Counted from the first letter of the stretch, positions 4,921-21,068 are shown. The stretch: 48,985 nt of DNA from Candidatus Aerophobota bacterium (GCA_021163155.1 JAGGXI010000068.1:1-48985), one strand, 5' to 3'. The notes: a model not told the origin generated them from the letters alone. A program made the numbers and translations.

Positions 4921-5627
4921 GAACAAGAAAGATAATTAGTATCATTATACTTCTCATACTCGCTGGAGGGTTTATTTTAACCTTCTCCCAAATTCCTTTT
5001 GGTAAAGATAAAATAAACGTAGCTCACTATTATATCAGCAAGGGAATTGAGGAGACCGGTGCTGTTAATATAGTTACCTCAGTTGTGTTGAACTATCGAG
5101 GATTTGATACCTTGGGCGAGGTTACGGTGCTTTTTATTGCTGCTATTGGCCTGGGTGCAGTTTTATTTACGGAGAAAAGAGTCCAGAAACATGCATCTAA
5201 AAGTAAGGACGATAAGACCAAAAAGGCAAGTTTAATCCTGCGCACAGGCTCAAACCTCCTTTTCCCCTTAATTCTTCTTTTTGGTGCTTATATTTTTGTC
5301 CACGGTCATCTCACCCCTGGGGGAGGATTTCAGGGGGGAGCAGTTATTGCCTCAGGATTTTTGCTAATGTATTTAGCCTTCCCAAAACAGAGTATAAACA
5401 AAAAATCATTAAGTGTTGTTGAGAGTTTAAGTGGACTAATTTTTGTAGGAATTGGACTTTTTGGTCTTATTTTTTCTGGGTATTTCTTAAGTAATTTCTT
5501 ACCTAAAGGGATTCCCAATACTCTTTTTAGCGCTGGTATTATTCCTATTATATACATTGCTGTGGGATTTAAAGTTGGGTTTGAGCTAACCAGTGTTATT
5601 GATGACTTACTGGGGAGGGGTAAATGA
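4917..5627 (+). CDS. Fusion of MbhE-like segment and MrpB subunit
   Basis: 236 residues joining two usually separate proteins. The N-terminal part (about 1-90; GAVNIVTSVVLNYRGFDTLG then EVTVLFIAAIGL) is the MbhE/MrpA C-terminal segment. The C-terminal part (about 105-236; GHLTPGGGFQGGAVIASGFL) is MnhB/MrpB (MbhF). A charged linker, KRVQKHASKSKDDKTKK, separates them. About six membrane helices in total. Fusion order follows the gene order of archaeal mbh clusters. It overlaps both neighbours by 4 bp. Confidence 0.85.
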   Translation: MRTRKIISIIILLILAGGFILTFSQIPFGKDKINVAHYYISKGIEETGAVNIVTSVVLNYRGFDTLGEVTVLFIAAIGLGAVLFTEKRVQKHASKSKDDKTKKASLILRTGSNLLFPLILLFGAYIFVHGHLTPGGGFQGGAVIASGFLLMYLAFPKQSINKKSLSVVESLSGLIFVGIGLFGLIFSGYFLSNFLPKGIPNTLFSAGIIPIIYIAVGFKVGFELTSVIDDLLGRGK

Positions 5628-5983
5628 GTCTTATCTACAACTGGATGTACTATATTGCCTCAGGAGGTTTAATCTTAATCGGTATGTATATCATCCTGGT
5701 AAAGACAAATTTAATTAAGATAATTATCGGTCTTAACTTTATTGACACCGGAGTAAATATCTTACTTGTCTGTATTGGCTATGTGAAAGGAAGAACTGCC
5801 CCTATATTCTCTACTTCAAGGATAAATCCTACAAATGTTGTAGACCCTGTACCTCAAGCTTTAGTTCTCACTGCTATTGTTATTGGAGTAGCTGTATTAG
5901 CTTTAGCACTTTCTATTGCTATTAAAGTCTATGAGCATAATAAAACTTTAAACGTTACCAAGATAAGGGGGTTAAAATGGTAA
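5624..5983 (+). CDS. mrpC: Mrp-type Na+/H+ antiporter subunit C (NuoK-like)
   Basis: 119-residue MnhC/MrpC (MbhG), homologous to NuoK, with three membrane helices. The family pattern NLIKIIIGLNFIDTGVNILL is followed by DPVPQALVLTAIVIGVAVLA. In NuoK-type subunits conserved carboxylates in these helices belong to the cation channel. It overlaps the B subunit by 4 bp and the D subunit by 7 bp. Confidence 0.9.
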   Translation: MSLIYNWMYYIASGGLILIGMYIILVKTNLIKIIIGLNFIDTGVNILLVCIGYVKGRTAPIFSTSRINPTNVVDPVPQALVLTAIVIGVAVLALALSIAIKVYEHNKTLNVTKIRGLKW

Positions 5984-7452
5984 ATCCATCACTTTTAATT
6001 GGTTTACCTTTAGCTTTCGCCTTTTCTATCCCTCTTTTTGGTCTTATCTCCAAAAAAATTGAAAAGTATATACCTATTATAGCTTTATTCATTAACATGG
6101 TTATTAGTTTTATGTTAATTCCACAGATTTTAAAAAAGCCGATTGTTGTATCTATTGGGGGCTGGAGCCCACCTTTTTGCATTAACCTGGTGGTAGGACC
6201 TTTGGGGATTCTCCTTGCCACTCTTATTTCGGGTATTGGTTTTTTGGTTTCCATATATGCAGTCAGTTATATAAAAGAAGAGCCTACCGAGAAATATCAC
6301 ATCCTATTTTTACTATTAATGGTTGGAGCAATAGGTATAGTTTTAACCGGTGATATATTTAATCTTTTTGTTTTCTTTGAGATTCTCTGCATCTCCTCAT
6401 ATGCTCTTGTCGCCTACTATAAGGATAAAGAAGGAACAGAGGCGGCAATGAAATACTTAATCCAGGGCTCGGTTGGATCCAGCTTTATTTTAATTGGTGT
6501 TGCTCTTTTGTATGGTTTTTTTGGGACACTTAATATGGCGGATATTGCCAGCAGGATTACATCAGCTAATCCTACATACCTGTTCATCACCTTAGCCTTT
6601 CTTATCACTGGATTTGGAATTGAAGCGGCTATATTTCCTTTAAATGCCTGGCTGCCTGATGCTCACTCATCAGCCCCATCATCAATCAGTGCTATTTTAT
6701 CTGGCATAGCTATTAAAACCGGAGTTTATGGGGTAGCAAGAATGGTTTATACTATATTTAATGCTAACAGCATCTTACTTTTTATTGCCTTTCTTGGTTT
6801 GTTAACCCTTTTAATTGGTGAGATGTGCGCATTTAGACAGGATGATATTAAAAGACTTTTAGCTTATTCAAGCATTGGCCAAATTGGATTAATTATCTTT
6901 GCTCTGGGGATAGCAACCTCACTCGGGGTCTTTGCCTCCTTATTCCAGATAGTCTCTCATGCTTTAGCTAAAGCCCTTCTTTTTTTAGCTGCGGGGTATA
7001 TGATTTACAGAGTTGGTTCAAAAAGCATTGCTTCTTTAAATGGACTGGGCAAGAAAATGCCTCTCACCTCTTTTGCCTTTACTATAGGCTCTTTTTCCTT
7101 AATCGGGCTTCCGCCTTTCGCAGGATTTGTGAGCAAACTTTCAATAGTTTATGCTGCTATGCAGGTAAAAAAGCCGGTTTTCTTAGCTTTTATCGCTATT
7201 GCCTTAATTGCAACTATTATTGAAGCTGGCTATTTTTTTAAAATTGTGCAAAATCTTTATTTTAAGGAAGGGAAAAACCTAGATAAGATAACCGAATCAT
7301 CTGGATATATACTAATACCAATAGCTATTTTAGCTATTTTAATTATCGTAATTGGAGTCCATCCTCAATTTATTACCGGCTTACTTAAGGCGTCAGCAAG
7401 GGAGCTTTTGGAAAGAGCAGGATACATTGGATGGGTTCTGGGAGGCACATAA
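5977..7452 (+). CDS. mrpD: Mrp-type Na+/H+ antiporter subunit D (NuoN/NuoL-like)
   Basis: A 491-residue, roughly 14-helix proton-conducting antiporter subunit (MrpD/MbhH). The helix-5 glutamate is in FFEILCISSYALVAYY (Glu135). The discontinuous helix-7 region reads GFGIEAAIFPLNAWLPDAHS, with Glu where several homologues have Lys. Lys247 (GIAIKTG) and the later FRQDDIKRLLAYSSIGQIG block are also present. It is one of two large antiporter-type proteins in this operon and the one closest to the Mrp module. It ends one base before the start of the next gene. Confidence 0.9.
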   Translation: MVNPSLLIGLPLAFAFSIPLFGLISKKIEKYIPIIALFINMVISFMLIPQILKKPIVVSIGGWSPPFCINLVVGPLGILLATLISGIGFLVSIYAVSYIKEEPTEKYHILFLLLMVGAIGIVLTGDIFNLFVFFEILCISSYALVAYYKDKEGTEAAMKYLIQGSVGSSFILIGVALLYGFFGTLNMADIASRITSANPTYLFITLAFLITGFGIEAAIFPLNAWLPDAHSSAPSSISAILSGIAIKTGVYGVARMVYTIFNANSILLFIAFLGLLTLLIGEMCAFRQDDIKRLLAYSSIGQIGLIIFALGIATSLGVFASLFQIVSHALAKALLFLAAGYMIYRVGSKSIASLNGLGKKMPLTSFAFTIGSFSLIGLPPFAGFVSKLSIVYAAMQVKKPVFLAFIAIALIATIIEAGYFFKIVQNLYFKEGKNLDKITESSGYILIPIAILAILIIVIGVHPQFITGLLKASARELLERAGYIGWVLGGT

Positions 7453-7453
7453 G

Positions 7454-9310
7454 GTGCAACTTATCACTATATTAGTAGTCTCTTTTCTTGGAGCTGGCAT
7501 AGTTTACTTAACCGGCAAATTCTCTGGAAGAGTTCGGGACATTTCAGCAGTTTTAGTATCATTAGCAGTGGTTATTTTAGTTGGTTTAGCTTATAATCAA
7601 AAAATCTATACCAATTTTTATTCCCTTCCTTTTTTAAATCTATCCCTTAGCTTAAGGCTAAATTATCTTTCCTGGTTTTTTGCTATAATAGTTGCAGGGA
7701 TTGGATTTTTATCTATTCTCTTTTCCCTGGAGTATATAAAAGATTACCAGGGAGTAGGTTTTTATTATTTTATGATGTTATTCGTTAACGCGGGGATGCT
7801 GGGAATTGTATTGAGTGCTGATTTTTTATCCTTTTATATTTTCTGGGAGATGATGAGCTGGGGCACATACCTTTTAATAAGCTATAAAGGAGGAAAGGCA
7901 GTAGCTGCCGGATTAAAATACATTATTATGTCAGTTGCTGGCTCTTTAGCTATGCTATTTGCCATTGTTAGTCTATATGCATCTTATGGAACGCTAAAAT
8001 TTTCCAGTTTAGCTTCTCTCTTGCAAATTGCCTCACCCGGATACATCCTTTTCCTTTTGCTTATGTTCGTAGTTGGGTTTGGCGTTAAGAATGCAATTTG
8101 GACACTTCATACCTGGCTTCCCGATGCCCATGCTGAAGCTGTATCACCTTTTTCGGCGGTCCTTACAGGAGTCCTGGTGAGAATGGGAATGTACGGATTT
8201 CTTTTGATTATGTACAGCATAGTAGGGTTAAGTCTTTTACACAAACTAGGATATGGATTGTTAAATTTTAACTATATACTTTGCTGGATTGGAGCTATTA
8301 CCATAGTTATTCCAACTTTTACTGCTCTCCTTCAAAATGATTCTAAAAGGCTTCTTGCCTGGCATGGAATCGGGCAGGGAGGATATATGGTTTTAGGAAT
8401 CGGGGTTGCTACATCTTTGGGTATTGCTGGCGGAATACTTCATACTTTAAATTACGCTGTCTGTGGAGCATTGCTCTTCTTTGTTGTTGGAGCGATAGAG
8501 CATAGAACCGGGGGAGTGAGAGATTTAAACGAGCTTGGTGGTTTAATTAAAAGGATGCCTGTTACTTTTATAGCAGGCTTAGCCGGTATTTCTGGTTTGA
8601 TTGGCGTTCCTCTGACTAACAGTTTTGTCTCCAAATGGATGATATATAAAACTTTAATTATGGAAAATTATCCATTTTTAGCCTTTGCTGCATTTATAGG
8701 AACCTGGGGAACAATCTTGTCGGTTTATAAATTCTTGCATAACATATTTTTAGGACAGCTTCCCGAGAAATACAAAGATGTCAAGGAAGTTCCCTTGACA
8801 ATGCAGATTCCTATGATTCTTTTGTCCTTAGCCATTATTCTATTTGGCATCCTGCCCGGGATTCCCTTGAAAGTAATTTCTGGTATTGAAAAATCCTTTG
8901 GTGTGGAACCTCTTTCTACTACTATGTTTGGCATGCCCAAAGAGATTGGAGAACTAAACTTGATTAATATTCTTGCTGTACTGTTAGTAGCTGGCATAGT
9001 TGTTTATCTTATATTCTCATTATCAGCGAAGTCAAGGCGAGTTAACCAGGATGATAATTATGCCGCAGGCTTATTCGTTCCCAGAGGTAAATATCAGTAT
9101 AGCGCGAGATTTTATGATCAAGCCTACAGAATAATTGGACCTTACCTTCACGATGTGGTGGATGATTTTTACTACTGGTTGGTAGGAAAAAGCAAATCTT
9201 CCTTCCAGATTGTAAGACAAATTTACACCGGAAATATAAATACGTATGCTCTATATATCCTTCTTTTTTTAACTCTTTTGATTTTTGTTAAATTAGGGTG
9301 GGGGCTATGA
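7454..9310 (+). CDS. Second antiporter-like subunit (NuoL/HyfB/MrpA-N family)
   Basis: The frame is open from 7352, but a GTG at 7454 behind GGGAGG begins right after the mrpD stop and gives a sensible 618-residue protein beginning VQLITIL. It is a NuoL/HyfB/MrpA-N-type membrane subunit: WEMMSWGTYLLISYKGG (helix 5 Glu), GFGVKNAIWTLHTWLPDAHA with the helix-7 lysine, and LLQNDSKRLLAWHGIGQGG. A C-terminal extension past residue 500 contains a soluble stretch (AKSRRVNQDDNYAAG) and a last helix, as in hydrogenase-4-type subunits. With mrpD it gives the complex two large channel-forming subunits. It overlaps the next gene by 4 bp (ATGA). Confidence 0.87.
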   Translation: MQLITILVVSFLGAGIVYLTGKFSGRVRDISAVLVSLAVVILVGLAYNQKIYTNFYSLPFLNLSLSLRLNYLSWFFAIIVAGIGFLSILFSLEYIKDYQGVGFYYFMMLFVNAGMLGIVLSADFLSFYIFWEMMSWGTYLLISYKGGKAVAAGLKYIIMSVAGSLAMLFAIVSLYASYGTLKFSSLASLLQIASPGYILFLLLMFVVGFGVKNAIWTLHTWLPDAHAEAVSPFSAVLTGVLVRMGMYGFLLIMYSIVGLSLLHKLGYGLLNFNYILCWIGAITIVIPTFTALLQNDSKRLLAWHGIGQGGYMVLGIGVATSLGIAGGILHTLNYAVCGALLFFVVGAIEHRTGGVRDLNELGGLIKRMPVTFIAGLAGISGLIGVPLTNSFVSKWMIYKTLIMENYPFLAFAAFIGTWGTILSVYKFLHNIFLGQLPEKYKDVKEVPLTMQIPMILLSLAIILFGILPGIPLKVISGIEKSFGVEPLSTTMFGMPKEIGELNLINILAVLLVAGIVVYLIFSLSAKSRRVNQDDNYAAGLFVPRGKYQYSARFYDQAYRIIGPYLHDVVDDFYYWLVGKSKSSFQIVRQIYTGNINTYALYILLFLTLLIFVKLGWGL

Positions 9311-10188
9311 TAATAAAAGTTATATCAATAATTGTTCTACCTTTAATAGCTCTTATCATTGGGTTTTTCTTTTTGGGTCTCTCAAGGAAAGTAATTGCCA
9401 GAATTCACAGAAGATATGGTCCCCCAATTTCTCAACCACTCATTGATGTTATTAAACTAATCAATCAGGAAAGCATCTCCCACGGCAAACTGTTTGATAT
9501 GGGAGTTATTTTATCTTTGGCTGGTTCAGTCATTTTAGTTTTATTTATTCCCTTTGGTGGAATTGCTCCTCTGGCTACATCTGGTGACCTGCTGGTTATT
9601 ATTTACCTTATGCTTCTTGCACCGCTCGGAGTTGCCTTAAGTGGCGGAGAAGCAGCTAATCCAAATGTAAGCATAGGTATATCTCGTAAAATGATGCTTG
9701 CTCTCGGATATGAGGTTCCCTTTCTATTTTCTCTTCTGGCAGTTATGACCTGGTATAAAACTACATCATTGGTGGAAGTTGTAAAAGCTCAACAAAGCTT
9801 TTTGTGGGCAATATTTTACCTTCCCCTGCCTGCGGTAGCTTATTTTATGATTTTGCCAGCAATGCTGGGAATAAGACCTTTTGATATAGTAAGTGCACCT
9901 CAAGAGATTGCCTCGGGAACAGCCGTTGAGTACGGAGGAAGATATTTAGCTCTAACAACCATCCAGCATGCTTTTCATATATTTATTGATATTGCTCTTT
10001 TTGTCAATCTTTTCCTGGGTGGAGGAAATCTTCTTACCTTCTTTGTTAAGATGCTTGTTGTATTTTTACTTGGTCTCTTTATTAATGCAGTCTTTCCTCG
10101 TTTGAGAATTGACCAGGCAATAAAATATTGCTGGAAGTGGCCAGCTATACTGGCATTAGTAGGATTAATTATAGCAAGGATAATATAA
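9307..10188 (+). CDS. NuoH/MbhM-like membrane anchor subunit
   Basis: About 293 residues from the ATG at 9307, which overlaps the previous stop as ATGA. It has about eight membrane helices and the NuoH-family block RRYGPPISQPLIDVIKLINQ in the first cytoplasmic loop. A later segment, FDIVSAPQEIASGTAVEYGG, is the loop that contacts the large and small peripheral subunits. NuoH-type proteins (MbhM, EchB, HyfC) link redox chemistry in the peripheral arm to the antiporter-like subunits, and in complex I also form the quinone chamber. The gap to the next gene is 15 bp, the largest in the operon. Confidence 0.9.
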   Translation: MIIKVISIIVLPLIALIIGFFFLGLSRKVIARIHRRYGPPISQPLIDVIKLINQESISHGKLFDMGVILSLAGSVILVLFIPFGGIAPLATSGDLLVIIYLMLLAPLGVALSGGEAANPNVSIGISRKMMLALGYEVPFLFSLLAVMTWYKTTSLVEVVKAQQSFLWAIFYLPLPAVAYFMILPAMLGIRPFDIVSAPQEIASGTAVEYGGRYLALTTIQHAFHIFIDIALFVNLFLGGGNLLTFFVKMLVVFLLGLFINAVFPRLRIDQAIKYCWKWPAILALVGLIIARII

Positions 10189-10203
10189 TAAAAGGAAATA
10201 GAT

Positions 10204-10764
10204 ATGGATAGAGGAAGTATAAAAAAGTGGTTAAAAGCTCCGGGTAAGATGGGTCAAAAATATTCGTTCTGGGTGGTTTATTTTTGTACCGGATGCGGAA
10301 TTATAGAAATTCCCCCCACGATAACTTCCAGGTGGGATGCAGAGAGGTTTGGAGTTATCCCTGTAGCCACCCCCAGGCAGGCTAACTTATTTTTAATTAC
10401 AGGCTATGTTTCAGTAAAAACTTTAAGGGCGATTATAAGAACCTATGAGCAGATGCCTGATCCAAAGTATACTGTCGGTTTTGGTTCCTGTCCTATAAAT
10501 GGTGGTATGTACTGGGACTCTTATAATACTATAAAACATCTGGATAAATATATCCCTGTAGATGGTTGGATTGCTGGCTGTATGCCCAGACCTGAATCTA
10601 TATTCATCGCCGTTACCCATCTTTGGACTATGATTGATAAAGGAATGGCAACTGGATATATAAAATATAGAGAAAAATACAAGAACTATCGCAAAAATCA
10701 GGAAGAAGCGTTGGGCAAACTTGAATGGCCACCTTTATACCCGGTAGGAGACAAAAATGAATAA
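10204..10764 (+). CDS. NuoB/MbhJ-like small subunit with one [4Fe-4S] cluster
   Basis: 186 residues, homologous to NuoB and to small subunits of group 4 hydrogenases. All four ligands of the proximal (N2-type) cluster are present: Cys28 and Cys31 (CTGC), Cys96 (GSCPINGG) and Cys126 (GCMPRPE). The downstream electron acceptor site belongs to the NuoD-like subunit, so this cluster is the last in the chain. The C-terminal 40 residues are lysine-rich and probably surface-exposed. It overlaps the NuoC-like gene by 8 bp. Confidence 0.92.
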   Translation: MDRGSIKKWLKAPGKMGQKYSFWVVYFCTGCGIIEIPPTITSRWDAERFGVIPVATPRQANLFLITGYVSVKTLRAIIRTYEQMPDPKYTVGFGSCPINGGMYWDSYNTIKHLDKYIPVDGWIAGCMPRPESIFIAVTHLWTMIDKGMATGYIKYREKYKNYRKNQEEALGKLEWPPLYPVGDKNE

Positions 10765-11278
10765 ATTAAAAAAGGAACTGAAATCAAGCTTTAAAGGTAT
10801 TCGGACAGGCATTCTTGAAGACAATAGATTGGCTGTAAGTGCCCCAAAAGATGCGGTTCTACCTATTTTAAGTTTTCTTAAAAATAAGGGATATGAGCAT
10901 TTATCTCTCATCTCCTGCGTGGATTGGATTGAGGAAAAGGAGTTGGAGTTGGTTTATGTTATTACCTCTTATTTGCAGAAGAATGATGAATATGCGGATA
11001 ATGAAAGATTGCATATACTTTTAAAGACAAGAATTTCCAGGGAAAACCCGGAATTTAAAACACTAGTCCCCATTTTTAAGAACGCCGAGCCTTACGAGCG
11101 GGAACTCCACGAACTTTTTGGGATAAATTTTGAAGGTAATAAAAGGCTAACCCCTCTTCTCCTGGAGAGGGCCTATAAGATACCTCCTTTTAGAAAGGAT
11201 TTCAACACAAGGGAGTATGTGAAAGAGAAGTTCGATAAAATTTCTTTCGTTGAGGAAAAAAAGAATGAGAGAGCTTGA
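10757..11278 (+). CDS. NuoC-like subunit
   Basis: 173-residue NuoC/30-kDa subunit homologue. The signature PYERELHELFGINFEGNKRL (about 114-133) is followed by a proline-rich tail (YKIPPFRKDF). It carries no cofactor and scaffolds the large and small subunits. It overlaps the NuoB-like gene by 8 bp and the NuoD-like gene by 14 bp. Separate NuoC and NuoD genes resemble Mbh/Mbx and Ech layouts, not the fused forms of some complexes. Confidence 0.88.
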   Translation: MNKLKKELKSSFKGIRTGILEDNRLAVSAPKDAVLPILSFLKNKGYEHLSLISCVDWIEEKELELVYVITSYLQKNDEYADNERLHILLKTRISRENPEFKTLVPIFKNAEPYERELHELFGINFEGNKRLTPLLLERAYKIPPFRKDFNTREYVKEKFDKISFVEEKKNERA

Positions 11279-12362
11279 ACTTTATTTTGGTCCTCAGCAT
11301 CTCGGGATGGTGGGAAATTTTAGCATTACCCTGAAGGTGGAGGGTGACCAAATTTTAGAGGCCCACGCCAATCCGGGTTGGCTACACCGGGGCTTTGAAA
11401 AATTGATGGAATATAGAACCTGGATACAGAATTTTCCCCTTGTGTGTAGAATAAATGTAATAGAACCCGACTCCATGGAGATGGTATACGCTATGGCAGT
11501 CGAAAAATTAGCAAAGATAGAGGTCCCAGAGAGAGCGAATTATATAAGAGCTATTGTTCTGGAGCTATCTCGGTTAGCTTCCCATTTATTTGGTTGCTGG
11601 GCTTATGCTAATATGCTTGGATTTGATACGGTTGCTCAATGGGCAATGTATCATAGAGACCTTATCTTAGACCTTTTTGAACAACTTACCGGTGCCAGAG
11701 TATATCATATATACATCTGCCCTGGAGGGGTAAGACGTGACCTACCAGAGGGATTTAAAGAAAAAGCCTTAAATACACTGCATACTATAGGCGGTTGTAT
11801 CCCCGACTACGATGCCACATTTTTTAACAATCGTCTGTTTTATGAAAGAGCAAAAGGGATAGGAAAAATAACTAGAGAAGAGGCAAAAGAGCTGGGAGTA
11901 ACAGGTCAAATTTTAAGGGCAACAGGGATAAACTTTGATATTAGGAAAGTTGAACCTTATGCTGTATATGATAAAGTGGATTTTGAGATTCCTACAAGAG
12001 AAGATGGTGATGCATATTCGAGAGTTTGGATAATAAGGGATGAGATGATTCAGAGTGTTCATACTATAATGCAGTGTTTGGAAAAAATACCAGAGGGTGA
12101 GGTCTATAAAAGAGTTCCCAATCCATTCAAATGGAACATACCAAAAGGAGAGACTTATGTGAGGGTTGAGTCTTCTCGTGGAGAATTGGGTCTTTATATG
12201 GTAAGCAACGGTAAGGATAAACCTTATCGTGTCCACTTCAGAACCCCCTCTTATCCACATGGACTGCTTGTCTTGGAAAAATTGTTAAAAAATGCAAGTA
12301 TTGCCGATGTAGGCAATATTATGATAAGTTTATATGTAACTGCTCCGGAGATAGATAGATGA
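11265..12362 (+). CDS. NuoD/Mbx-like large subunit lacking a NiFe site
   Basis: 365 residues from the ATG at 11265, behind GAGG; the frame itself opens at a TTG at 11250. It belongs to the NuoD/EchE/MbhL family: YFGPQHLGMVGNF at the start, NPGWLHRGFEKLMEYRTW, and LTGARVYHIYICPGGVRRD. NiFe hydrogenases need two CxxC motifs. Here the first is Cys61-Arg-Ile-Asn64, and at the C-terminus the usual DPCxxC(S/T)xR region reads YVTAPEIDR. Three of four nickel ligands are therefore gone, as in complex I, Fpo and (in part) Mbx-type subunits. The product is not predicted to be a hydrogenase; the substrate reduced at this site is unknown. Confidence 0.88.
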   Translation: MRELELYFGPQHLGMVGNFSITLKVEGDQILEAHANPGWLHRGFEKLMEYRTWIQNFPLVCRINVIEPDSMEMVYAMAVEKLAKIEVPERANYIRAIVLELSRLASHLFGCWAYANMLGFDTVAQWAMYHRDLILDLFEQLTGARVYHIYICPGGVRRDLPEGFKEKALNTLHTIGGCIPDYDATFFNNRLFYERAKGIGKITREEAKELGVTGQILRATGINFDIRKVEPYAVYDKVDFEIPTREDGDAYSRVWIIRDEMIQSVHTIMQCLEKIPEGEVYKRVPNPFKWNIPKGETYVRVESSRGELGLYMVSNGKDKPYRVHFRTPSYPHGLLVLEKLLKNASIADVGNIMISLYVTAPEIDR

Positions 12363-14227
12363 AAGAAAAATCAAAAGTCAACGGAAAACCTAGCCTTTTA
12401 GGCCCCTTTAAGGCAATTAAGTATCTTTTCAAAAAACCGGTAACTTTAAGGTACCCTTTTGAACTTAAGGAGCCTTCGCTGAGATGCCGCGGTTTTCACC
12501 TCAATGACTGGGATAAATGCACTGGTTGTGGTAACTGCGCCGATATATGTCCAAATGAAGCAGTCACTATGGTAGAAATTCCTGAAATAGAAGCAAAGCC
12601 TGGAGAGAAAAATGAGCGCCCCCAGATTGATTATGGAAGATGTTGTTTTTGTGGTCTATGTGTGGATATATGTCCTCCCGGTTCTCTAAGGCTCTCCAGG
12701 GACTATTTCCACATCCACTTTAAAACCAGCACTTTTAACTTACTGGCAAAAGATGAAAAGATAGATAAAGAACATTTTCTCCCTGCCGATAAGTATTCCG
12801 TATTTAAAGCAAGTTTAGCACACCGTAAGAAAGATAACGAAGGATTTTCATCTGAGCTGAAATATTCACTATTTGAACCAAAGCGTGTATCTATGCCCCA
12901 GGTCAAACCCGAGGAAAGAAAGCTCTCCTTTGTAGAGCAGGTTTTAGGCTACAGTAAGGAAGAAGCAAAGCAAGAGGCATCCAGATGCCTCGAATGTAAA
13001 TTGTGTGAGGATGCCTGTCCAGCCCATCTTAAGATTTCTGATTACGTAAGAGCAATCTACGAGGATAAGCCTGATGAATCTTTAAGAAAAATATTTGAGG
13101 ATAACCCGATTCCTGCAATATGTGGAAGAATATGTATGGCTCATTGTGAGGATGCCTGCTCTCTTGGCAAAAGGGGCGAGCCGGTGGCTGTGCGTTGGTT
13201 AAAGAGATATGCTTCTGATATGATTGAAGATTATAAGAAGACGCTGAGGCTTAAACCAGCTAAATCTATCGACAAAAAAGTTGCTGTTATAGGGGCAGGT
13301 CCGGGTGGATTGTCGGTAGCATATTTTCTAAGATTGAAAGGATACACAGTTACTGTGTTTGATTCCTTGCCTGGTGGAGGAGGTATGATGCGAATAGGTC
13401 CACCGCCTTACCGCTTACCAATTGAAAGTATTGACAAGGATGTAAGTCATATTGCTTCTTTAGGAGTGAAATTTAGATTTAATACTACTGTAGGTAAAGA
13501 TATTTTGTTTGAGGATATTTACAAAAACTATGACGCTATTCATCTGGGAATAGGCATGACTGTATCTCACTCCACGCGCGTCAAGAACTCTGAGAAAGCT
13601 TATCTTGCCCTTCAATTCCTTCAGGAGAATAAAATTGGCAAAAAAGTTAAGGTAGGTAAAGAAATTATTGTTATCGGTGGAGGAAACGTAGCTATTGATG
13701 TTGCGCGAGAGGCTTTAAGATTGCAACATATCCAATATCCAGAAGAGAAGGTAATTACTAAAACAGTTTCTTTGGAGGATTGGGATATAATGCCGGCTAC
13801 CAAAGAAGAAATTGAAGACGCAAAAGCAGAAGGGATTCAATTCAATCCTGGCTGGGGACCCAAGGAGATTAAGATTGAAGATAGTAAAGTAAAGGGTCTT
13901 TTATGTATAAAAGTGAAGTCTGTTTTCGATGAGCAGAGAAGATTTAGGCCCACCTTTTATGAAGAAAAAGAGATGTTTTTAAAAGGAGATATGGTCATTG
14001 AAGCTATCGGGCAAGGACCAAATTTTTCATTTATTCCTAAGGAACTATTTAAAAAGTTGGAGTTTACTCCTCGACGAAAGATAAAGGTTACAGAATTTGG
14101 GCAAACTTCTATTCCCAAAGTCTTTGCCGGTGGCGATATTGTTAATCTCAATTTAGATGCTATAACTGCTATTGCAGATGCCAAAAGAGCTGCTGAGGGA
14201 ATAGATCTTTATCTAAAGGGAAATTAA
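12359..14227 (+). CDS. Ferredoxin-type (NuoI-like) domain fused to GltD/NfnB-type NAD(P)-FAD oxidoreductase
   Basis: 622 residues in three parts. (1) Residues 40-110 hold two [4Fe-4S] motifs, C54-C57-C60-C64 and C95-C98-C101-C105, with a NuoI/MbhN-like lead-in (FKKPVTLRYPFE). (2) Residues 205-270 hold the cysteine-rich GltD-type domain (C210, C213, C216, C220; C255, C259, C263, C267). (3) An FAD fold (GAGPGG at 312-317) and an NAD(P) fold (GGGNVAIDVA at 440-449) follow, ending with GQTSIPKVFAGGD. GltD/NfnB-type modules exchange electrons between NAD(P)H and iron-sulfur carriers. Here that module is covalently joined to the subunit that docks on the membrane complex. It overlaps the large-subunit gene by 4 bp and ends 12 bp from convergent mobA. 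Confidence 0.85.
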   Translation: MKEKSKVNGKPSLLGPFKAIKYLFKKPVTLRYPFELKEPSLRCRGFHLNDWDKCTGCGNCADICPNEAVTMVEIPEIEAKPGEKNERPQIDYGRCCFCGLCVDICPPGSLRLSRDYFHIHFKTSTFNLLAKDEKIDKEHFLPADKYSVFKASLAHRKKDNEGFSSELKYSLFEPKRVSMPQVKPEERKLSFVEQVLGYSKEEAKQEASRCLECKLCEDACPAHLKISDYVRAIYEDKPDESLRKIFEDNPIPAICGRICMAHCEDACSLGKRGEPVAVRWLKRYASDMIEDYKKTLRLKPAKSIDKKVAVIGAGPGGLSVAYFLRLKGYTVTVFDSLPGGGGMMRIGPPPYRLPIESIDKDVSHIASLGVKFRFNTTVGKDILFEDIYKNYDAIHLGIGMTVSHSTRVKNSEKAYLALQFLQENKIGKKVKVGKEIIVIGGGNVAIDVAREALRLQHIQYPEEKVITKTVSLEDWDIMPATKEEIEDAKAEGIQFNPGWGPKEIKIEDSKVKGLLCIKVKSVFDEQRRFRPTFYEEKEMFLKGDMVIEAIGQGPNFSFIPKELFKKLEFTPRRKIKVTEFGQTSIPKVFAGGDIVNLNLDAITAIADAKRAAEGIDLYLKGN

Positions 14228-14239
14228 GCGTTCCTCCTG

Positions 14240-14818
14240 TTACCACTGATACTTCCTTGCTAATTCCCACATCTGGAGAGTATTTAAGTTGGAAAAAGAG
14301 AGCAGATGAGGGTCATACTTTTTTATTTCATTCTCGGGAAGATATTTACACTTAACTTCAGAAAAGAAGCTTTTTACCTTTAAATCTTCAACTTCTAAAT
14401 GAGAATTTATAGCCGGCAGACACCTTTTAGAATAAATAGCATGTAAAGGTTCAACAAAGCCTTTAACCACAGGTATAACAATATCATTCTCATCTATCTC
14501 TGAAACCATAAACCTAAGCAAATCCACATTCAGAAAGGGCATATCGCAACCGCAGATAAAATTATATTCACTTTTAGATACTAATAGCCCTGTATAAATT
14601 CCTCCTAAGGGTCCTTTTCCAGAGACTGTATCTTCTATTATCCTTACTCCCAAAAACTGGTGATTAAGGGAAGAGTTACCGATTATAAGAACATTATCAA
14701 AAACAATTTTTAGTTTTTCTATAACTAACTTTATAACCTGCTTTTTGCCAATTTTAAGCAAGGCTTTGTTTTTTTTCATCCGCCGGCTTTTTCCTCCGGC
14801 AAGAATTACACCGGTCAT
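14240..14818 (-). CDS. mobA: Molybdenum cofactor guanylyltransferase MobA
   Basis: 192 residues from the ATG at 14818; the frame reaches a TTG at 14857 inside the channel gene, but MTGVILAGGKSRRM is the normal family N-terminus. MobA joins GMP to molybdopterin, making the (bis-)MGD cofactor required by the formate dehydrogenase of this operon. LAGGKSRRM (6-14) is the GTP-binding loop, and CGCDMPFL carries the metal-binding aspartate. It starts one base after the fdhC stop. A C-terminal duplicate lies at 1468-1803. Confidence 0.92.
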   Translation of the reverse strand: MTGVILAGGKSRRMKKNKALLKIGKKQVIKLVIEKLKIVFDNVLIIGNSSLNHQFLGVRIIEDTVSGKGPLGGIYTGLLVSKSEYNFICGCDMPFLNVDLLRFMVSEIDENDIVIPVVKGFVEPLHAIYSKRCLPAINSHLEVEDLKVKSFFSEVKCKYLPENEIKKYDPHLLSFSNLNTLQMWELARKYQW

Positions 14819-14819
14819 T

Positions 14820-15671
14820 TTATCTCGCTTTTTTACCATTTCCTTTGCAATAGACAAGCCAATAAAGGAGACCTACAAAAAACGCTCCTCCAACGAGATT
14901 TCCTAAGGTTACCGGAATCTCGTTATTGAGCCAGAAACCACCCCAGGTTAAATTATCTAATTTACCTGTTAAGTTAGCAGCGGCAACTACTGCTGGCTTT
15001 GCTTTTAGATAGAGACCCATGGGGATAAAGTACATATTAGCGATACTGTGTTCAAAACCAGAGGCAACAAAAGCCATAATGGGGAAATAGATAGCAAAAA
15101 TTTTGCCAATAACATTTCTGCTGCATAAAGCCATCCAGACAGCTAAACAGACCAACCAGTTACAACCAATACCTCGGCAAAAGGCTTCCGTCCAGGAGAG
15201 GTTAACTTTTGCATTGGCAATACTTAAAGCCTTTGCTCCTACGCCTAAACCTCCAACTTTCCATAATCCAGAGCCAAACATAATCCAGACTAAAATCATA
15301 GAGCCTACAAAATTAGCTAAGTAAATCCATCCCCAACTCCCAATCATTCCTTTTAGAGATATTCTCTTACCCAGTGCACACATTGACAATAAATTGTTTC
15401 CTGTAAAGAGTTCTGCTCCAGCGATAACCACTAACATCAGGCCTACACTAAAGACACTACCACCCATAAATTTAGCGAAACCAACTCCTAAATATTTAGC
15501 CATGTCATGGGTGATCATTGTCGCCAGTTCAGCACCAAATCCAATATAAACCCCCGCCAATATCCCCAGAATAAAACTCTGCCACCAGGGAGCAGTTACT
15601 TTTTTAATTCCTATTTTCTCAATTAGAGACTCTCCCACCATTGCAGGTGTTTTATCATCTACTCCTGTCAT
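14820..15671 (-). CDS. fdhC: Formate/nitrite transporter family channel (FocA/FdhC)
   Basis: 283 residues with six membrane helices of the FNT family. Diagnostic segments are AELFTGNNLLSM (the re-entrant loop after helix 2), RGIGCNWLVCLAVWMA and SGFEHSIANMYFIPMG; the last contains the pore histidine typical of the family. Its position between nuoF and mobA in a formate dehydrogenase operon points to formate as substrate rather than nitrite or hydrosulfide. GGAGGAG precedes the ATG. Confidence 0.92.
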   Translation of the reverse strand: MTGVDDKTPAMVGESLIEKIGIKKVTAPWWQSFILGILAGVYIGFGAELATMITHDMAKYLGVGFAKFMGGSVFSVGLMLVVIAGAELFTGNNLLSMCALGKRISLKGMIGSWGWIYLANFVGSMILVWIMFGSGLWKVGGLGVGAKALSIANAKVNLSWTEAFCRGIGCNWLVCLAVWMALCSRNVIGKIFAIYFPIMAFVASGFEHSIANMYFIPMGLYLKAKPAVVAAANLTGKLDNLTWGGFWLNNEIPVTLGNLVGGAFFVGLLYWLVYCKGNGKKAR

Positions 15672-15717
15672 TATTTCTCCTCCTTCTTTTTTTTAATTCT
15701 TTTTTTTTAAAAATTTT

Positions 15718-17007
15718 TTATATTTTACAAACCCCTGTGGGGCATCTTCCCTTTATATGTTCAATAAATTCTTCTTTGAAATACTTTAAAATTGTAGAAA
15801 TGGGCAAAATTGGTGATTGACCAAGAGCACAAAGAGAGGCCTTTTGCATTACTTTAGCCGTCTGAAGTATTAAATCAATATCATCTTCCTTACCCTTCCC
15901 TTGAGAAATAGAGGTGGTTATTTCCAGAAGTTTCTCTGTTCCTATTCTACCAGGAACACATTTACCGCAACACTCACGTTTAAAAAAATTTAAGAAACAT
16001 TTAAGCATATCTACACAACAGGTGGTCTCATCCATTACCAGAATAGCTCCAGAGCCTAAAACCAATCCTTTTCTCTTGAGAGAAGCGTAATCTAAAGACA
16101 CATCAAGCATATCCTCACCTAAGATAGCTCCCGCTGTCCCTCCTACTTGAGCCATTTTAAATTTACCTTGCCTCATCCCTCCAGCATACTCATTGATAAT
16201 TTTTCTTAAAGTAATACCCATCGGAGCTTCAACCACACCAACCTCTTTAACATGTCCCGATACGGCATAAACCTTTGTTCCGGGACACTCCTTTGTCCCA
16301 AAACCTCTAAACCAGTCTGCCCCTTTAAGAATAATAGGAGCAATATTAGCCAATGTCTCTACATTATTGATAACCGTTGGCTTTTTCCAAAGTCCACTAC
16401 TTGGGGGAAAGGGTGGTTTAAAACGAGGATTACCACGTTTACCTTCTATAGAGTCCATCAAAGCAGTCTCCTCTCCACAAACATAGGAACCTGCCCCTTG
16501 ATGAATCTCAATCTGGAAATTAAAACCACTTTCAAGAATGTCCTCACCTAAGAATCTATGCTCTTCAGCCTGTTCGAGTGCTTTTTGAAATCTATTAATG
16601 GAAAGAATATATTCCCCACGAATATAAATATAGCCATAGTGAGCACCTACAGCATATCCAGCTATTATCATTCCCTCTATAATCTTATGAGGGTCACCTT
16701 CTAAAATCGGTCTATCTTTAAATGTTCCCGGTTCCCCTTCATCAGCATTGCAAATAATATACCTGGGAGTATCTTTTGCTCTGGATGTAAACTCCCATTT
16801 TAAACCCGTGGGAAACGCTGCTCCTCCCCTACCCTGCAGGCCTGAAGCCTTAATTTCATTAATCACTTCCTCAGGCTTCATTTCCTGCAAAACCCTATTT
16901 ACCGCTTTATAGCCCCCCTGAGCAATATACTCTTCAATACTTTCTGGATTAATTTTACCGCAATTCTCCAGAACAATTCTCACTGGACTTTTTAATTCTT
17001 TTACCAT
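15718..17007 (-). CDS. NuoF-like NADH-binding subunit of formate dehydrogenase
   Basis: 429 residues: FMN/NADH domain (GRGGAAFPTG, 59-68; CNADEGEPGT, 86-95), SLBB domain, and a C-terminal four-helix domain for one [4Fe-4S] cluster. It lacks the N-terminal thioredoxin-like and C-terminal two-cluster ferredoxin domains of bifurcating HydB/HndC proteins. The N3-type cluster motif is unusual. Where NuoF has SCGKCxPCR, this protein reads CCGKCVPGR (346-354), with the third ligand replaced by Gly353 and an extra Cys346 next to the first. The distal cysteine (SLCALGQS) is kept. It overlaps nuoE by 7 bp. Confidence 0.92.
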   Translation of the reverse strand: MVKELKSPVRIVLENCGKINPESIEEYIAQGGYKAVNRVLQEMKPEEVINEIKASGLQGRGGAAFPTGLKWEFTSRAKDTPRYIICNADEGEPGTFKDRPILEGDPHKIIEGMIIAGYAVGAHYGYIYIRGEYILSINRFQKALEQAEEHRFLGEDILESGFNFQIEIHQGAGSYVCGEETALMDSIEGKRGNPRFKPPFPPSSGLWKKPTVINNVETLANIAPIILKGADWFRGFGTKECPGTKVYAVSGHVKEVGVVEAPMGITLRKIINEYAGGMRQGKFKMAQVGGTAGAILGEDMLDVSLDYASLKRKGLVLGSGAILVMDETTCCVDMLKCFLNFFKRECCGKCVPGRIGTEKLLEITTSISQGKGKEDDIDLILQTAKVMQKASLCALGQSPILPISTILKYFKEEFIEHIKGRCPTGVCKI

Positions 17008-17441
17008 TTTTTCTCCCTCAATCTTTTTAAAATTTTTTTGATTTCTTGGGGAGTTAAATTACCATAAACTTTCTCATTAATCATCATTGCCGGTGCTTCA
17101 TCACATATTCCAAGACAGCTTGTCTCCTCCAGAGTAAACTTTCCATCAGGTGTTGTCTCTCCAACTTTAATCTTTAATTCTTCTTCTAAGACCTCAAAGA
17201 TACTTCTCGACCCCATTAAATGGCAGGGACCACTATCACAAACCCGAATTATATACTCGCCCCGTGGTTTTAAACTGAACAACGAATAGAAGGTAGCTAC
17301 ACCGTAAACCTCACTATAACTTAACCCTGCCTCCTGAGCAATAAGCTTTAACTTCTCTTCGGTAATATAATTATGCTTGCTTTCTCTTTGTGCCTCACTT
17401 AAAAGGGCGATAACATCTTTTTCTTTATCTCTTAACTTCAT
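17001..17441 (-). CDS. NuoE-like [2Fe-2S] subunit of formate dehydrogenase
   Basis: 146-residue thioredoxin-fold ferredoxin. Ligands Cys68 and Cys73 (CDSGPC) and Cys109 and Cys113 (CLGIC) are all present, spaced as in NuoE/HydC. The helical N-terminus contains the family block YGVATFYSLFSLKPRG. It pairs with the NuoF-like protein to form the NADH-oxidising head of an NAD-dependent formate dehydrogenase. The 55 bp between it and fdhA hold a family C repeat. Confidence 0.92.
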   Translation of the reverse strand: MKLRDKEKDVIALLSEAQRESKHNYITEEKLKLIAQEAGLSYSEVYGVATFYSLFSLKPRGEYIIRVCDSGPCHLMGSRSIFEVLEEELKIKVGETTPDGKFTLEETSCLGICDEAPAMMINEKVYGNLTPQEIKKILKRLREKKW

Positions 17442-17460
17442 TTTTAATCCTTTCTATTTG

Positions 17461-17525
17461 AGATTTCTAAAAAGTCGGAAATCTAGGTAATCATTCTTAA
17501 GAATCTATGTAATCAGAGGCTTCTA
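17461..17525. repeat. Family C repeat running into the fdhA 3' end
   Basis: GAGATTTCTAAAAAGTCGG... then ATCTATGTAATCAGAGGCTT. The second part matches 38776-38800 and the family continues at 23923, 43990 and 48475. The repeat covers the fdhA stop codon, so the last residues of FdhA (about EASDYIDS) are repeat-encoded. Confidence 0.7.
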
Positions 17526-20199
17526 TCTTTACTGCCGATACTTTATATTCAGGAATCTTAGCCACCGGGTCAAGAGCATCATTAGTCAAAAGGTTTGCCG
17601 CTGATTCTGCAAAATGAAAAGTCATAAAGACCACACCTTTATCTACACGGTCAGTAATCTTTGCTTTCACTTCAACTTTGCCCCGACGTGAACTCACTCT
17701 TAACCAATCATTATCTTTAACTTTTAGTTTTTCTGCATCCTGAGGATTAATCTCCAAAAATCCCTCTGGAGCAATACTATCCAATGGTTTTGACCTGCGG
17801 GATAAAGAACCTGTATGGAAATGGTAAAGAATTCTACCTGTAGAGAGAAGGAATGGATATTCTTCATCGGGCAACTCTGCCGGTGGAATATAATCTACGG
17901 GAGTAAAAAGACCTTTTCCTCGAGTAAATTTATCTTTATGCAGGTAAGGGGTACCTGGATGCTCACGACTTGGACAGGGCCATTGCAAGCCTTGCCCTTC
18001 CAGGCGATCAAAATGGACACCACCATAAATAGGAGTTAAGGAAGCAATTTCATCCATTACTTCTGCTGGCGAACGATAAACCATTGGATAACCCATTCTT
18101 TCACTTATTTCCGTAATAATCTTCCAGTCATCTCTACTGTCTCCAATATTAGGAATTGCTTTATGCAAAAGCTGAATTCTGCGACCTGTATTGGTGAAAG
18201 TTCCATCTTTTTCAGCGAAAGAGACACCGGGAAGAACTACATCAGCAAGCTCGGCTGTTTGAGTTAAAAAGATATCCTGAACTACCAAAAAATCAAGATT
18301 TCTCAATCCTTCCCTTACATGATTAAGATTGGGGTCACTGAGCATAGGATTTTCACCCATTATGTAAAGCCCTTTAATCTTCCCCTTGCTGGCGGCATCC
18401 ATTATTTCTACTACAGTTAATCCTACCTTTGGAGAAAGCTTTGCACCCCAGGCTTTTTCAAATTTTTCTTTAGCTTGTTCATCGCTAACACTCTGATAAC
18501 CCGGATAAACATTGGGTAGGGCTCCCATATCACAAGCACCCTGAACATTATTCTGTCCACGCAGAGGATTAACACCGGTTCCTTCTCGTCCCACATTGCC
18601 ACAGAGCATAGCTAAATTAGCCAAGGATAGGACATTATCAGTTCCTGTGGTATGCTGAGTTATACCCATAGCAAAAATAATAGAACCCTTATCTGCTTTT
18701 CCATACATTCTTGCAGCAGCAACCAACTTTTCTTTAGAAATGCCTGTAATTTCTTCTACCTTTTCAGGAGTATATTTGGAGACTACTTTCTTAAATTTAT
18801 CAAAATTTTCTGTGCGGTTTTCTACAAATTCTTTATCATAAAGGCCTTCACTAATGATTACATTCATCAAGCCATTAATCCAGGCAACATCGGTTCCACT
18901 TTTCTGCCTTAACCAAATTTTGGCATATTCGATTAACTCAATTGCTCGTGGGTCTACTACAATTAGTTCTGTACCGTTATAAGTTGCTAAGTGCTTAAGA
19001 TAATCTCCAATTACCGGATGGGTCTCTGTAGTATTAGAACCTGTTATTAAAATAACATCTGCTTTCTCAAACTCTCGAATAGAATTAGTCATTGCACCAC
19101 TACCAAAAGCACGAGCAAGACCAGCTACAGTAGAGGCATGACAAAGACGAGCACAATGGTCAACATTATTGGTGCCGAAACAGGCGCGAATAAGCTTTTG
19201 GAAAAGATAATTTTCCTCATTGGTGCATTTAGCTGATGATAATCCAGCTAAAGCATCACTGCCGTATTTATTCTTCAATTCCTTAAACTTAGTGACTATT
19301 AAATTTAGTGCTTCATCCCAGCTTGCTTTCTCAAACTTTCCATTGCGTTTAATTAAAGGACTAATAAGACGATCTTCATGATGGACATAGTCAAATCCAA
19401 AGCGCCCTTTAACGCAGAGATGCCCCTTGTTATCAGGACCATCTTCAACTCCGTAAACTTTCACGATTTTATCATCTTTAATATTTAATTTTAGCTGACA
19501 GCCAACTCCACAGTAAGGGCAAGTGGTTTGTACTTTCCGGAATTCCCAGCTTCTACCCTGAAAACGAGCTAATTTTTCGGTTAATGCACCAGTAGGACAG
19601 GCTTGAACACAGGCTCCACAAGAGACACAATCGGTTTGGACCAATGGTTGATCTAATCCTGCAATAATATAAGTTTTACTGCCTCGAGCAGCAAAATCTA
19701 ATACTTTCTGAACGGTAAGTTCAGCGCAGGCACGGACACATCGCCCGCAAAGAATGCACCTATTAGGGTCTCTTAAAATTACTTCACTGGAATCTTCAAT
19801 AGGTTCAACCGATTTATTAACAGGAAAACGTATTTTATCAATACCCAACTCATAAGCCAAATCCTGGAGATCGCACTGACCATTATTCTCACAGACCAAA
19901 CAATTATGTTCATGTTCTGAGAGGATCAACTCTACAATTAATCTCCGCATCTCATTTAGCTCTTCATCAGTACTTGTCACTTCCATCCCCTCAGCTACTT
20001 CTGTTGTGCAAGAAGCTGTCATACCTGGTCTACCTTTAATTTTTACCAAACAGACCCGACAGGCTCCAGCAATACTTAAACCTTTCTGATAACATAAATG
20101 AGGAATTTTAATTCCATTAGCTAAAGCTGCCTCCATAATTGTAGAACCTTTTTCTGCCTTAATTGGTTTCTCATCAATAGTGATATTTACAGTGTTCAT
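17497..20199 (-). CDS. fdhA: Formate dehydrogenase catalytic subunit with NuoG-like N-terminus, Cys type
   Basis: 900 residues from the ATG at 20199, which has GGAG seven bases upstream; the frame also allows an ATG at 20202. Domain order: [2Fe-2S] (C36, C47, C50, C64); His-Cys3 cluster (H96 or H98, C100, C103, C109); two-cluster ferredoxin domain (C148/151/154/158; C191/194/197/201); then a molybdopterin domain with its own [4Fe-4S] (C227, C230, C234, C262). The metal ligand is Cys353 in RLCHAST, so no selenocysteine is needed. It catalyses reversible formate oxidation and passes electrons to the NuoF/NuoE head and so to NAD. It is the first gene of fdhA-nuoE-nuoF-fdhC-mobA. Whether ferredoxin is a second partner cannot be read from the sequence. 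Confidence 0.93.
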   Translation of the reverse strand: MNTVNITIDEKPIKAEKGSTIMEAALANGIKIPHLCYQKGLSIAGACRVCLVKIKGRPGMTASCTTEVAEGMEVTSTDEELNEMRRLIVELILSEHEHNCLVCENNGQCDLQDLAYELGIDKIRFPVNKSVEPIEDSSEVILRDPNRCILCGRCVRACAELTVQKVLDFAARGSKTYIIAGLDQPLVQTDCVSCGACVQACPTGALTEKLARFQGRSWEFRKVQTTCPYCGVGCQLKLNIKDDKIVKVYGVEDGPDNKGHLCVKGRFGFDYVHHEDRLISPLIKRNGKFEKASWDEALNLIVTKFKELKNKYGSDALAGLSSAKCTNEENYLFQKLIRACFGTNNVDHCARLCHASTVAGLARAFGSGAMTNSIREFEKADVILITGSNTTETHPVIGDYLKHLATYNGTELIVVDPRAIELIEYAKIWLRQKSGTDVAWINGLMNVIISEGLYDKEFVENRTENFDKFKKVVSKYTPEKVEEITGISKEKLVAAARMYGKADKGSIIFAMGITQHTTGTDNVLSLANLAMLCGNVGREGTGVNPLRGQNNVQGACDMGALPNVYPGYQSVSDEQAKEKFEKAWGAKLSPKVGLTVVEIMDAASKGKIKGLYIMGENPMLSDPNLNHVREGLRNLDFLVVQDIFLTQTAELADVVLPGVSFAEKDGTFTNTGRRIQLLHKAIPNIGDSRDDWKIITEISERMGYPMVYRSPAEVMDEIASLTPIYGGVHFDRLEGQGLQWPCPSREHPGTPYLHKDKFTRGKGLFTPVDYIPPAELPDEEYPFLLSTGRILYHFHTGSLSRRSKPLDSIAPEGFLEINPQDAEKLKVKDNDWLRVSSRRGKVEVKAKITDRVDKGVVFMTFHFAESAANLLTNDALDPVAKIPEYKVSAVKIEASDYIDS

Positions 20200-20265
20200 C
20201 ATTTTTCTCCTTTTTTTAAAGAGAATATTGCTAAAATATACCTCTCCTTTGTAATTGGTAGCCAT

Positions 20266-20371
20266 AAGGCTTGTTGTAGCTCATGGCTCACAATCTAATT
20301 TGGTAACCACAAGGCCAGAGCCTGTGAAGATATACAAAACTTAAAATTACGTCTACTATTTTTACATCAAC
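20266..20371. repeat. Family B composite repeat, degenerate, in the fdh operon leader
   Basis: GGTAACCACAAGGC...GAGCCTGTGAAGATATAC and AAAACTTAAAATTACGTC match 22790-22850 with many changes. This and the neighbouring family A copy fill most of the 20200-20417 gap. I see no convincing -35/-10 pair for the fdh operon there. Confidence 0.5.
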
Positions 20372-20380
20372 GAAGATAAG

Positions 20381-20420
20381 TTTATCCCGTTAGGTAAGCT
20401 TCTCTATCCAACAGGGTTTA
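20381..20420. repeat. Family A repeat overlapping the rex stop codon
   Basis: ATCCCGTTAGGTA...TATCCAACAGGG, a diverged copy whose last bases include the rex TAA (20418-20420 on the minus strand). As an imperfect stem it could also slow transcription at the rex 3' end. Confidence 0.55.
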
Positions 20421-21068
20421 AATAAATGAACGAGCTTCAGATTCACTATGTGTTAGATAATAAGCTAAGTTTCCTAATTCTATAGCTATATTTACCGTCT
20501 TGATCTTTACATTTTCTGGAATAGTTAAATACTTTGGGGAAAAATTCAAAATTCCCTTAATACCAGCTTTTGTTAATACATCTGCTGTTTTTTGTGCTGC
20601 TGAAACAGGAACAGTGATAATAGCTATCTTAATCTTTTCTTTTTTTATTATTTTTTCAATCTGTGATGAATCTTTGATTTTTACTTCTCTATATGTTTTC
20701 CCTATTTTCTTTGGGTCAATGTCAAAGGCAACTGAAATTTGAAAACCAAGCTCCTCAAGGCCTGGATAATTAAGTAGAGCTGAACCAAGTCTTCCTACCC
20801 CAACTAGAGCCACCAACCATTTTTTATCCAATCCCAGGACAGATTTAATATCAGAAATAAGAGATTGGACATTATATCCTACCCCCTTTCTCCCAAAATC
20901 TCCAAAATAAGAAAGATCTTTTCTTACCTGAGCTGCAGAAACATAAATGTCTTGAGCTAATTTATCAGAGGAGATTGTTTCTCTTCCCTCCTGGGCTAAA
21001 TAATTTAGATTGCGGAGATATAAAAAAAGTCGCTTAACACTCTCCTTTGGAACCTGTATTTTTTTCAT
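20418..21068 (-). CDS. rex: Redox-sensing transcriptional repressor Rex
   Basis: 216 residues, normal length. The winged helix includes [20 protein letters not shown] (42-61) and the Rossmann NADH-binding motif is GVGRLG (90-95). The C-terminal domain-swap helix has [13 protein letters not shown]. Rex represses fermentative and redox genes at a high NAD+/NADH ratio and releases DNA when NADH is abundant. A Rex box overlaps its own promoter, indicating autoregulation. It lies directly upstream of, and in the same orientation as, the NAD-linked formate dehydrogenase operon, a plausible target, although no good Rex box is seen in the 20200-20417 gap. Confidence 0.95.

Follow-up and report, generated by a model that had tools for sequence, protein, structure and literature searches.

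A ferredoxin-domain/GltD-type flavoprotein fusion in an Mrp/Mbx operon of Candidatus Aerophobota: a candidate NADH port on an MBS-type ion-pumping complex

Mbx/MBS complexes are regarded as intermediate between Mrp antiporters, membrane hydrogenases and complex I. An operon of this kind was found in the window (the whole stretch of 48 985 nucleotides analysed; Candidatus Aerophobota bacterium, GCA_021163155.1, JAGGXI010000068.1:1-48985), and its last gene encodes a ferredoxin-type domain joined to a GltD/NfnB-type flavoprotein. The locus thus raises the question of what a nucleotide-binding module does on the peripheral arm of a membrane pump, and of what lies at the other end of the wire. In a first-pass annotation the complex had been read as a cation-pumping ferredoxin:NAD(P) oxidoreductase that fills a role played elsewhere by Rnf or soluble Nfn. 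The operon comprises 13 genes (3552–14227, + strand) with the fusion gene last, as that annotation had placed it, and the gene number equals the 13 subunits of MBS. The features were assigned as follows.

3383–3410 (+): putative sigma-70-like promoter upstream of the operon, TTGACA-16-TATTAT (11/12 matches, by consensus alone)
3552–4055 (+): MrpE (MNHE) subunit, first gene of the operon (Pfam)
4052–4303 (+): MrpF-type subunit (ORF and related operons)
4300–4677 (+): MrpG-type subunit (ORF and related operons)
4678–4920 (+): small DUF4040-like subunit, MbsD role (ORF and position)
4917–5627 (+): subunit with MbhE and MnhB domains, MbsE role (Pfam)
5624–5983 (+): MrpC-type subunit, MbsG role (ORF and same-place homologues in related operons)
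5977–7452 (+): MbsH/MrpD-type antiporter-like subunit (Pfam and NCBIfam profile matches)
7352–9310 (+): antiporter-like subunit of the MbsH' type, extended at the C terminus; translation probably starts at GTG 7454
9298–10188 (+): MbsM/NuoH-like membrane anchor (bit scores below)
10204–10764 (+): MbsJ/NuoB-like subunit; motif FCTGCG identical to MbsJ
10757–11278 (+): MbsK/NuoC-like subunit (Pfam Complex1_30kDa)
11250–12362 (+): MbsL/NuoD-like large subunit; better start ATG 11265
12359–14227 (+): fusion subunit, 622 aa (ORF, Pfam, NCBIfam PRK13984, cysteine alignment, AlphaFold model)
Fusion, aa ~20–120: MbsN/NuoI-type domain, 2×[4Fe-4S]
Fusion, aa 190–291: GltD/NfnB-type domain, two [4Fe-4S]
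Fusion, aa 306–620: FAD and NAD(P) Rossmann folds

A CsoR-family operator (ATACC..GGTAT) at 3419 was discarded as a candidate: of 100 shuffled versions of the window, 33 had at least one match, and the motif was absent upstream of the other operons. Sulfur genes were not found as a conserved downstream neighbourhood, and the neighbours varied among loci; at one locus (L016) a CoA-disulfide-reductase-like flavoprotein and a thioredoxin are encoded directly downstream of the operon.

The fusion is a genuine single chain, as had been claimed. Its ORF starts with ATG at 12359 and continues in one reading frame with zero internal stops; translational coupling is suggested by the overlap (ATGA) of this start codon with the stop codon of the nuoD-like gene before it. 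Pfam matches were obtained for Fer4/Fer4_9 (50–108), Fer4_20, the GltD/DPD domain (190–291, E 5e-28), and Pyr_redox_2 (306–598, E 1e-25). All 16 cluster cysteines, eight of the NuoI type and eight of the GltD type, were invariant in the alignment of the 57 sequences covering them. The N-terminal domain had been described as NuoI/MbhN-like with two clusters; the two-cluster type was borne out, but among solved structures the closest relative was MbsN of MBS (119.6 bits) and not NuoI (55.7) or MbhN (44.0). An AlphaFold model (mean pLDDT 77, pTM 0.73) was confident for the GltD part, to which NfnI-L, NfnB, Nfn-ABC, StnC and GltD were the closest structures, and poor at the N terminus and in the linker (aa 114–173).

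The architecture is neither rare nor new in itself. An assembly artefact was excluded by full-length single ORFs on many independent contigs, including chromosome-sized ones from the Thermotogae phylum. A search of GTDB species genomes yielded 36 loci, nearly all with the fusion, under about 20 phylum-level labels; the labels of metagenome-assembled genomes may be wrong in single cases, and chromosome-sized contigs are also among the carriers. At every one of these loci with a full fusion and enough upstream contig sequence to tell, the fusion gene lay directly 3' of a nuoD-like gene, and the full 13-gene order was found at more than ten of them. Within the Thermotogae phylum the fusion was present in 69 of 103 genomes, an MBS-type NuoB gene in 67 and both together in 66. 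The GltD-like gene said to lie near mbx in Thermotogales is therefore this same covalent fusion. Only three of 17 genomes of the window's own phylum carried it at full length, which indicates a patchy spread there; Hippea, Desulfurellales and Caldisericum are among the related operon carriers. The suspicion that the association might not be wholly new was also justified, since the full-length fusion is catalogued as NCBIfam NF010590 (PRK13984, "putative oxidoreductase"). Residues 10–621 matched model positions 8–608 of 611 with 707.8 bits (E 9e-213), under the curated equivalog cut-off of 946 bits. Two fusions from the Thermotogae phylum scored 1200.6 and 1172.2 bits, over that cut-off, so the model looks built for such proteins. 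No description of the function of the fused Mbx subunit was found in the open literature searched, nor any measured activity for a bacterial member of the family, and a mention in subscription review literature is possible.

The complex to which the fusion belongs was assigned by comparing five subunits with all solved structures; P. furiosus MBS (formerly MBX, 6u8y) was the best match for all five. The scores were 352 bits for the NuoD-like subunit (complex I 260, MBH 142), 225 for the NuoB-like subunit (next 128), 120 for the NuoI-type domain of the fusion (next 56), 235 for the NuoH-like subunit against MbsM (MbhM 89.5) and 257.5, over the full length, for the MnhD2 antiporter-like subunit. 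The membrane arm is of the Mrp type, with two antiporter-like subunits and the MbsM anchor. The alignment of the NuoB-like subunit with MbsJ is gapless across 156 residues, and the CTGC loop is shortened as in MbsJ. Owing to this loop, one iron of the site-differentiated proximal [4Fe-4S] cluster of MBS has no cysteine ligand, and it is there that sulfane sulfur is reduced (PMC7684303). The cluster cysteines C28, C93 and C123 were present in all complete sequences compared. Natural replacement was seen at C25, a non-ligand in MBS (PMC7684303), where L011 carries Ala and L016 Ser; its loss beside three retained ligands fits the MBS mechanism and not that of MBH.

These comparisons also bear on whether the locus encodes a group 4 [NiFe] hydrogenase or a complex I-like NADH:quinone oxidoreductase. 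Both share the fold, and Mrp-linked clusters in metagenome-assembled genomes have been called "group 4g hydrogenase" (PMC8542988), a case considered here by that paper's label alone. The large subunit of the window, however, lacks the nickel-ligand cysteines (N and T occupy the two positions in common with MBS, and the L1 and L2 regions have no CxxC), and the quinone ligands His38 and Tyr87 of Nqo4 are both replaced by Val. In the J subunit the tandem-cysteine N2 motif of complex I is absent (CTGC instead of CC), as is the MBH motif. No UbiA-family (quinone) prenyltransferase was detected in the host genome (93% complete), although one was found in 14 of 14 control genomes, and the host has no second NuoD-like gene. 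Both functions were thus rejected and are considered extremely unlikely. Going by these residues, the locus encodes neither a hydrogenase nor complex I; the subunit matches affiliate the complex with MBS. The annotation of such clusters as hydrogenases or ferredoxin:NADP oxidoreductases is consequently doubtful.

The flavoprotein half was read against T. maritima NfnB (residue numbers from PMC7596348) in an alignment of 57 sequences. It resembles NfnB (4ylf, 5jca) in fold (TM-score 0.84 over the target), in the eight cluster cysteines and in its FAD and nucleotide domains. Two sites differ. The position of Glu117, which ligates the proximal [4Fe-4S] cluster of NfnB, is Lys in 57/57, and the YRR motif, which binds the NADP phosphate (PMC7596348), is replaced in 55 of the 57, mostly by SLE (as in the window) and nearly always by a motif ending in L-E; YRR is kept only in L081 and L090. 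NADH is therefore the likelier partner than NADPH, as far as these motifs can tell. The same lysine is found in Nfn-ABC (9bov, 9n5u; for 9n5u by direct alignment) and in Sporomusa StnC (8oh5), whose GltD flavin is non-bifurcating (PMC10482914). Flavin-based bifurcation by the GltD half is hence unlikely. An Nfn-like bifurcating or confurcating enzyme coupled to the pump would account for the homology of this half with NfnB, but in view of the lysine, and of the lack of any NfnA-like gene among the 13 operon genes, it is regarded as very improbable. StnC and Nfn-ABC are alike also in joining a GltD-type NAD(P)H module to an FeS wire; in Stn, however, the wire is of the NuoG type and leads to a bifurcating module, whereas that of the window is of the MbsN type and leads to a membrane pump.

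Taken together, we favour an ion-pumping complex of the MBS/Mbx type that has an NADH port built in and in which electrons would pass between NADH (and/or ferredoxin) and sulfane sulfur (probability about 0.55). The sulfur part of this reading is based on the match of all five subunits to MBS and the conservation of C28, C93 and C123; the NADH part on the replaced YRR and the Rex genes that adjoin the operon at three loci (L009, L021 and, by motif only, L024). Rex is a sensor of NADH/NAD+. The electron-entry subunit (MbsN) would carry the NAD(H)-FAD module, and electrons would be exchanged from NADH through FAD, the proximal GltD [4Fe-4S] cluster (three Cys and the conserved Lys), the distal GltD [4Fe-4S] cluster and the two MbsN-type [4Fe-4S] clusters to the three-Cys proximal cluster in MbsJ. 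Reduction of a sulfane-sulfur substrate (polysulfide or disulfide) would take place in the chamber that lies between subunits J, L and M, and this turnover would power the Na+/H+ antiport module and both antiporter-like subunits, by machinery common to MBS and complex I. As in P. furiosus MBS, the MbsN clusters may accept electrons from ferredoxin, which would make the NADH module a second port, one that either feeds the same wire or draws electrons from it. Sulfane sulfur as the substrate, Na+ pumping and the direction of flow are inferred. The proposed transfer has to cross the linker of aa 114–173, and its poor modelling counts against this reading.

Hippea, Desulfurellales and Caldisericum are groups of sulfur reducers. 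In T. maritima mbxA was up 4.36-fold with S0, in agreement with a role in sulfur metabolism; in the passages of that source covered here, MBX is treated as a ferredoxin-driven sulfur reductase, and a fused NAD module is not mentioned in them (PMC9431562). Energetically the two inputs are unequal. With NADH at about −320 mV, electron transfer to polysulfide yields far less energy than from ferredoxin, so that NADH alone could hardly drive several pumps, and the port may instead be used for mixed input, for balancing or, in sulfur-oxidising hosts, for reverse flow. For the ferredoxin-driven MBS, 41 kJ/mol per 2e− has been quoted (PMC7684303), and a putative Mrp-Mbx complex in the Riftia symbiont was co-expressed with the reductive TCA cycle (PMC11636981). 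If the NADH-port reading holds, a GltD-based NADH input would be an invention independent of the NuoEFG unit of complex I, and quinone-free uncultured anaerobes could tie their NADH pool to an ion gradient. While the architecture was already catalogued, the combination of an MBS arm with a GltD port that is of the NADH type and has the Lys ligand appears to be new.

The main rival is the ion-pumping ferredoxin:NAD(P)+ oxidoreductase, in which the MbsN clusters would hand electrons from ferredoxin to the fused flavoprotein for reduction of NAD(P)+, and cations would be exported. It is the older published proposal for bacterial Mbx (PMC3608648, PMC4596419), and its best argument is the physical joining of the NAD(P) module to the ferredoxin-accepting arm; Mbx and Rnf also occur mostly in separate Thermoanaerobacter clades (PMC3608648). 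Such a wire, however, would bypass the J/L/M chamber in which MBS, MBH and complex I couple redox chemistry to pumping, and the MBS-type reactive cluster is conserved nonetheless. The NADP motif is missing in 55/57. No Rnf genes lie within the 13-gene operon, but RnfC is encoded on another contig (C81) of the host genome, so that the fusion is not a stand-in for a missing Rnf there. Among genomes of the Thermotogae phylum, RnfC was found in 68 of 69 with and in 29 of 34 without the fusion; the two are not mutually exclusive in that phylum. The role assigned elsewhere to Rnf is thus not vacant in this host, and an Nfn-like one is unlikely with YRR absent and Lys in place of the NfnB-type Glu. 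What stands of the first-pass annotation is the covalent tethering of an NAD(P) module, with four predicted [4Fe-4S] clusters, to the peripheral arm of a pump; the ferredoxin:NAD(P) function is weakened by the MBS-type site, by RnfC and by the absent YRR, and seems to us possible though improbable.

A second rival keeps the NADH-wired pump and changes the chamber substrate of the window's relatives to another disulfide or small oxidant in place of polysulfide. In the MbsL tree the window falls into a separate clade of 19 rows (support 100/99), in which MbsL C85 is replaced by N and C385 by T, V, I or A (N and T in the window), and a new Cys two residues upstream of the C85 position (VCRIN) is fixed throughout. 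With the last two MBH-derived cysteines lost and one gained, the substrate could differ; the flavoprotein and thioredoxin downstream in L016 point the same way. Against this, the proximal-cluster motif of MbsJ is unchanged, the gene neighbours differ from locus to locus, and a P. furiosus C85A/C385A double mutant was as active as the wild type (PMC7684303). Loss of these cysteines is therefore no argument against sulfur reduction, although another substrate still has room; we consider it unlikely. C85 and C385 are rather a subtype marker than a functional requirement for MBS, by analogy with the mutant. Many hosts of the window clade, Aerophobetes included, are not known to respire sulfur, a point against the preferred sulfur reading. 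A further, doubtful possibility is that this clade forms a distinct NADH-linked, Na+-translocating respiratory complex without quinone, haem or nickel, in which a disulfide or sulfane substrate would be reduced (or, run backwards, oxidised) at a three-Cys [4Fe-4S] cluster after loss of all ancestral nickel-site cysteines and gain of a conserved one; it would occur across many uncultured phyla and be, in some hosts such as this one, the sole machine of the complex I family. A clade without the last ancestral nickel-site cysteines is also apparently new.

The preferred NADH-port complex can be set beside two known systems. P. furiosus MBS is the best match for J, L, M, H' and the N domain and agrees in subunit number by gene count, in the proximal-cluster motif and in having no nickel or quinone ligands. 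Its MbsN (208 residues) is unfused, however, whereas that of the window is joined to the GltD/NfnB module, and it retains the C85 and C385 that the window clade lacks. Both cysteines (RICVPEPD...CPPE) are also kept in the Thermotogae-phylum set except L011, in Caldiserica, in Hippea/Desulfurellales, in Parasulfuritortus and in one gammaproteobacterial metagenome-assembled genome, and the fusion is common to both cysteine subtypes, which offer a clean testable comparison between Thermotoga and the uncultured clade. Mbx of the Thermotogae phylum has the full-length fusion (~41–50% identity; L011 76%) 3' of the NuoB/C/D genes, but its MbsL branches apart from the window clade, and the NADP-type YRR of L081 and L090 occurs on this side of the comparison.

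The operon is bracketed by a direct repeat, and the following features of the window were located around it:

1469-1710 and 14244-14485, direct repeat of 242 bp (copies 89% identical)
2918-3187 (+), CsoR/FrmR-family repressor gene, upstream of the operon
3419-3439, candidate operator ATACC..GGTAT, directly after the operon promoter
14820-21068 (-), formate dehydrogenase cluster, directly downstream of the operon on the opposite strand
21316-21912 and 21912-22574 (-), pair of ORFs, upstream of Rex

Both repeat copies correspond to the end of a mobA-like gene (mobA assigned by eye), and the 12.5-kb segment between them carries a folD-like fragment (by eye), the CsoR-family gene and the entire operon, as if it had been inserted or duplicated next to mobA. 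By eye, the CsoR/FrmR-family protein contains two Cys residues, and its metal-binding His is replaced by Tyr, which is the pattern of the persulfide sensor CstR. The ATACC..GGTAT element is possibly an operator, a chance match being conceivable.

The cluster downstream is that of an NAD-linked formate dehydrogenase and comprises genes for a FocA-like formate channel, NuoF-like and NuoE-like proteins and the formate dehydrogenase alpha subunit, as well as the Rex gene. The two ORFs upstream of Rex gave zero matches in a Pfam search.

Among the aligned fusion proteins from other genomes, the NADP-type YRR motif is retained in two Thermotogae-phylum members (L081 and L090) and is absent from all others, a distribution which points to a possible change of cofactor preference among these proteins. 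At three of the related loci, the fusion gene is followed by:

L028 (Caldisericaceae), 11824-12384, stand-alone Hint (intein-splicing-like) ORF (PF14890, E 1e-9)
L040 (Caldisericaceae), 10996-11571, Hint-like ORF, recognised only by resemblance to that of L028
L016, 12094-14255, CoA-disulfide-reductase-like flavoprotein and thioredoxin, directly 3' of the fusion gene

At four further loci (L013, 11952-21854; L012; L014; L015) the operon adjoins another gene cluster of the complex I family. This one is for a group 4 hydrogenase akin to the enigmatic Zixibacteria/Omnitrophica hydrogenase (PMC6349859); in L013 it also holds AsrA/AsrB- or sulfhydrogenase-like genes.
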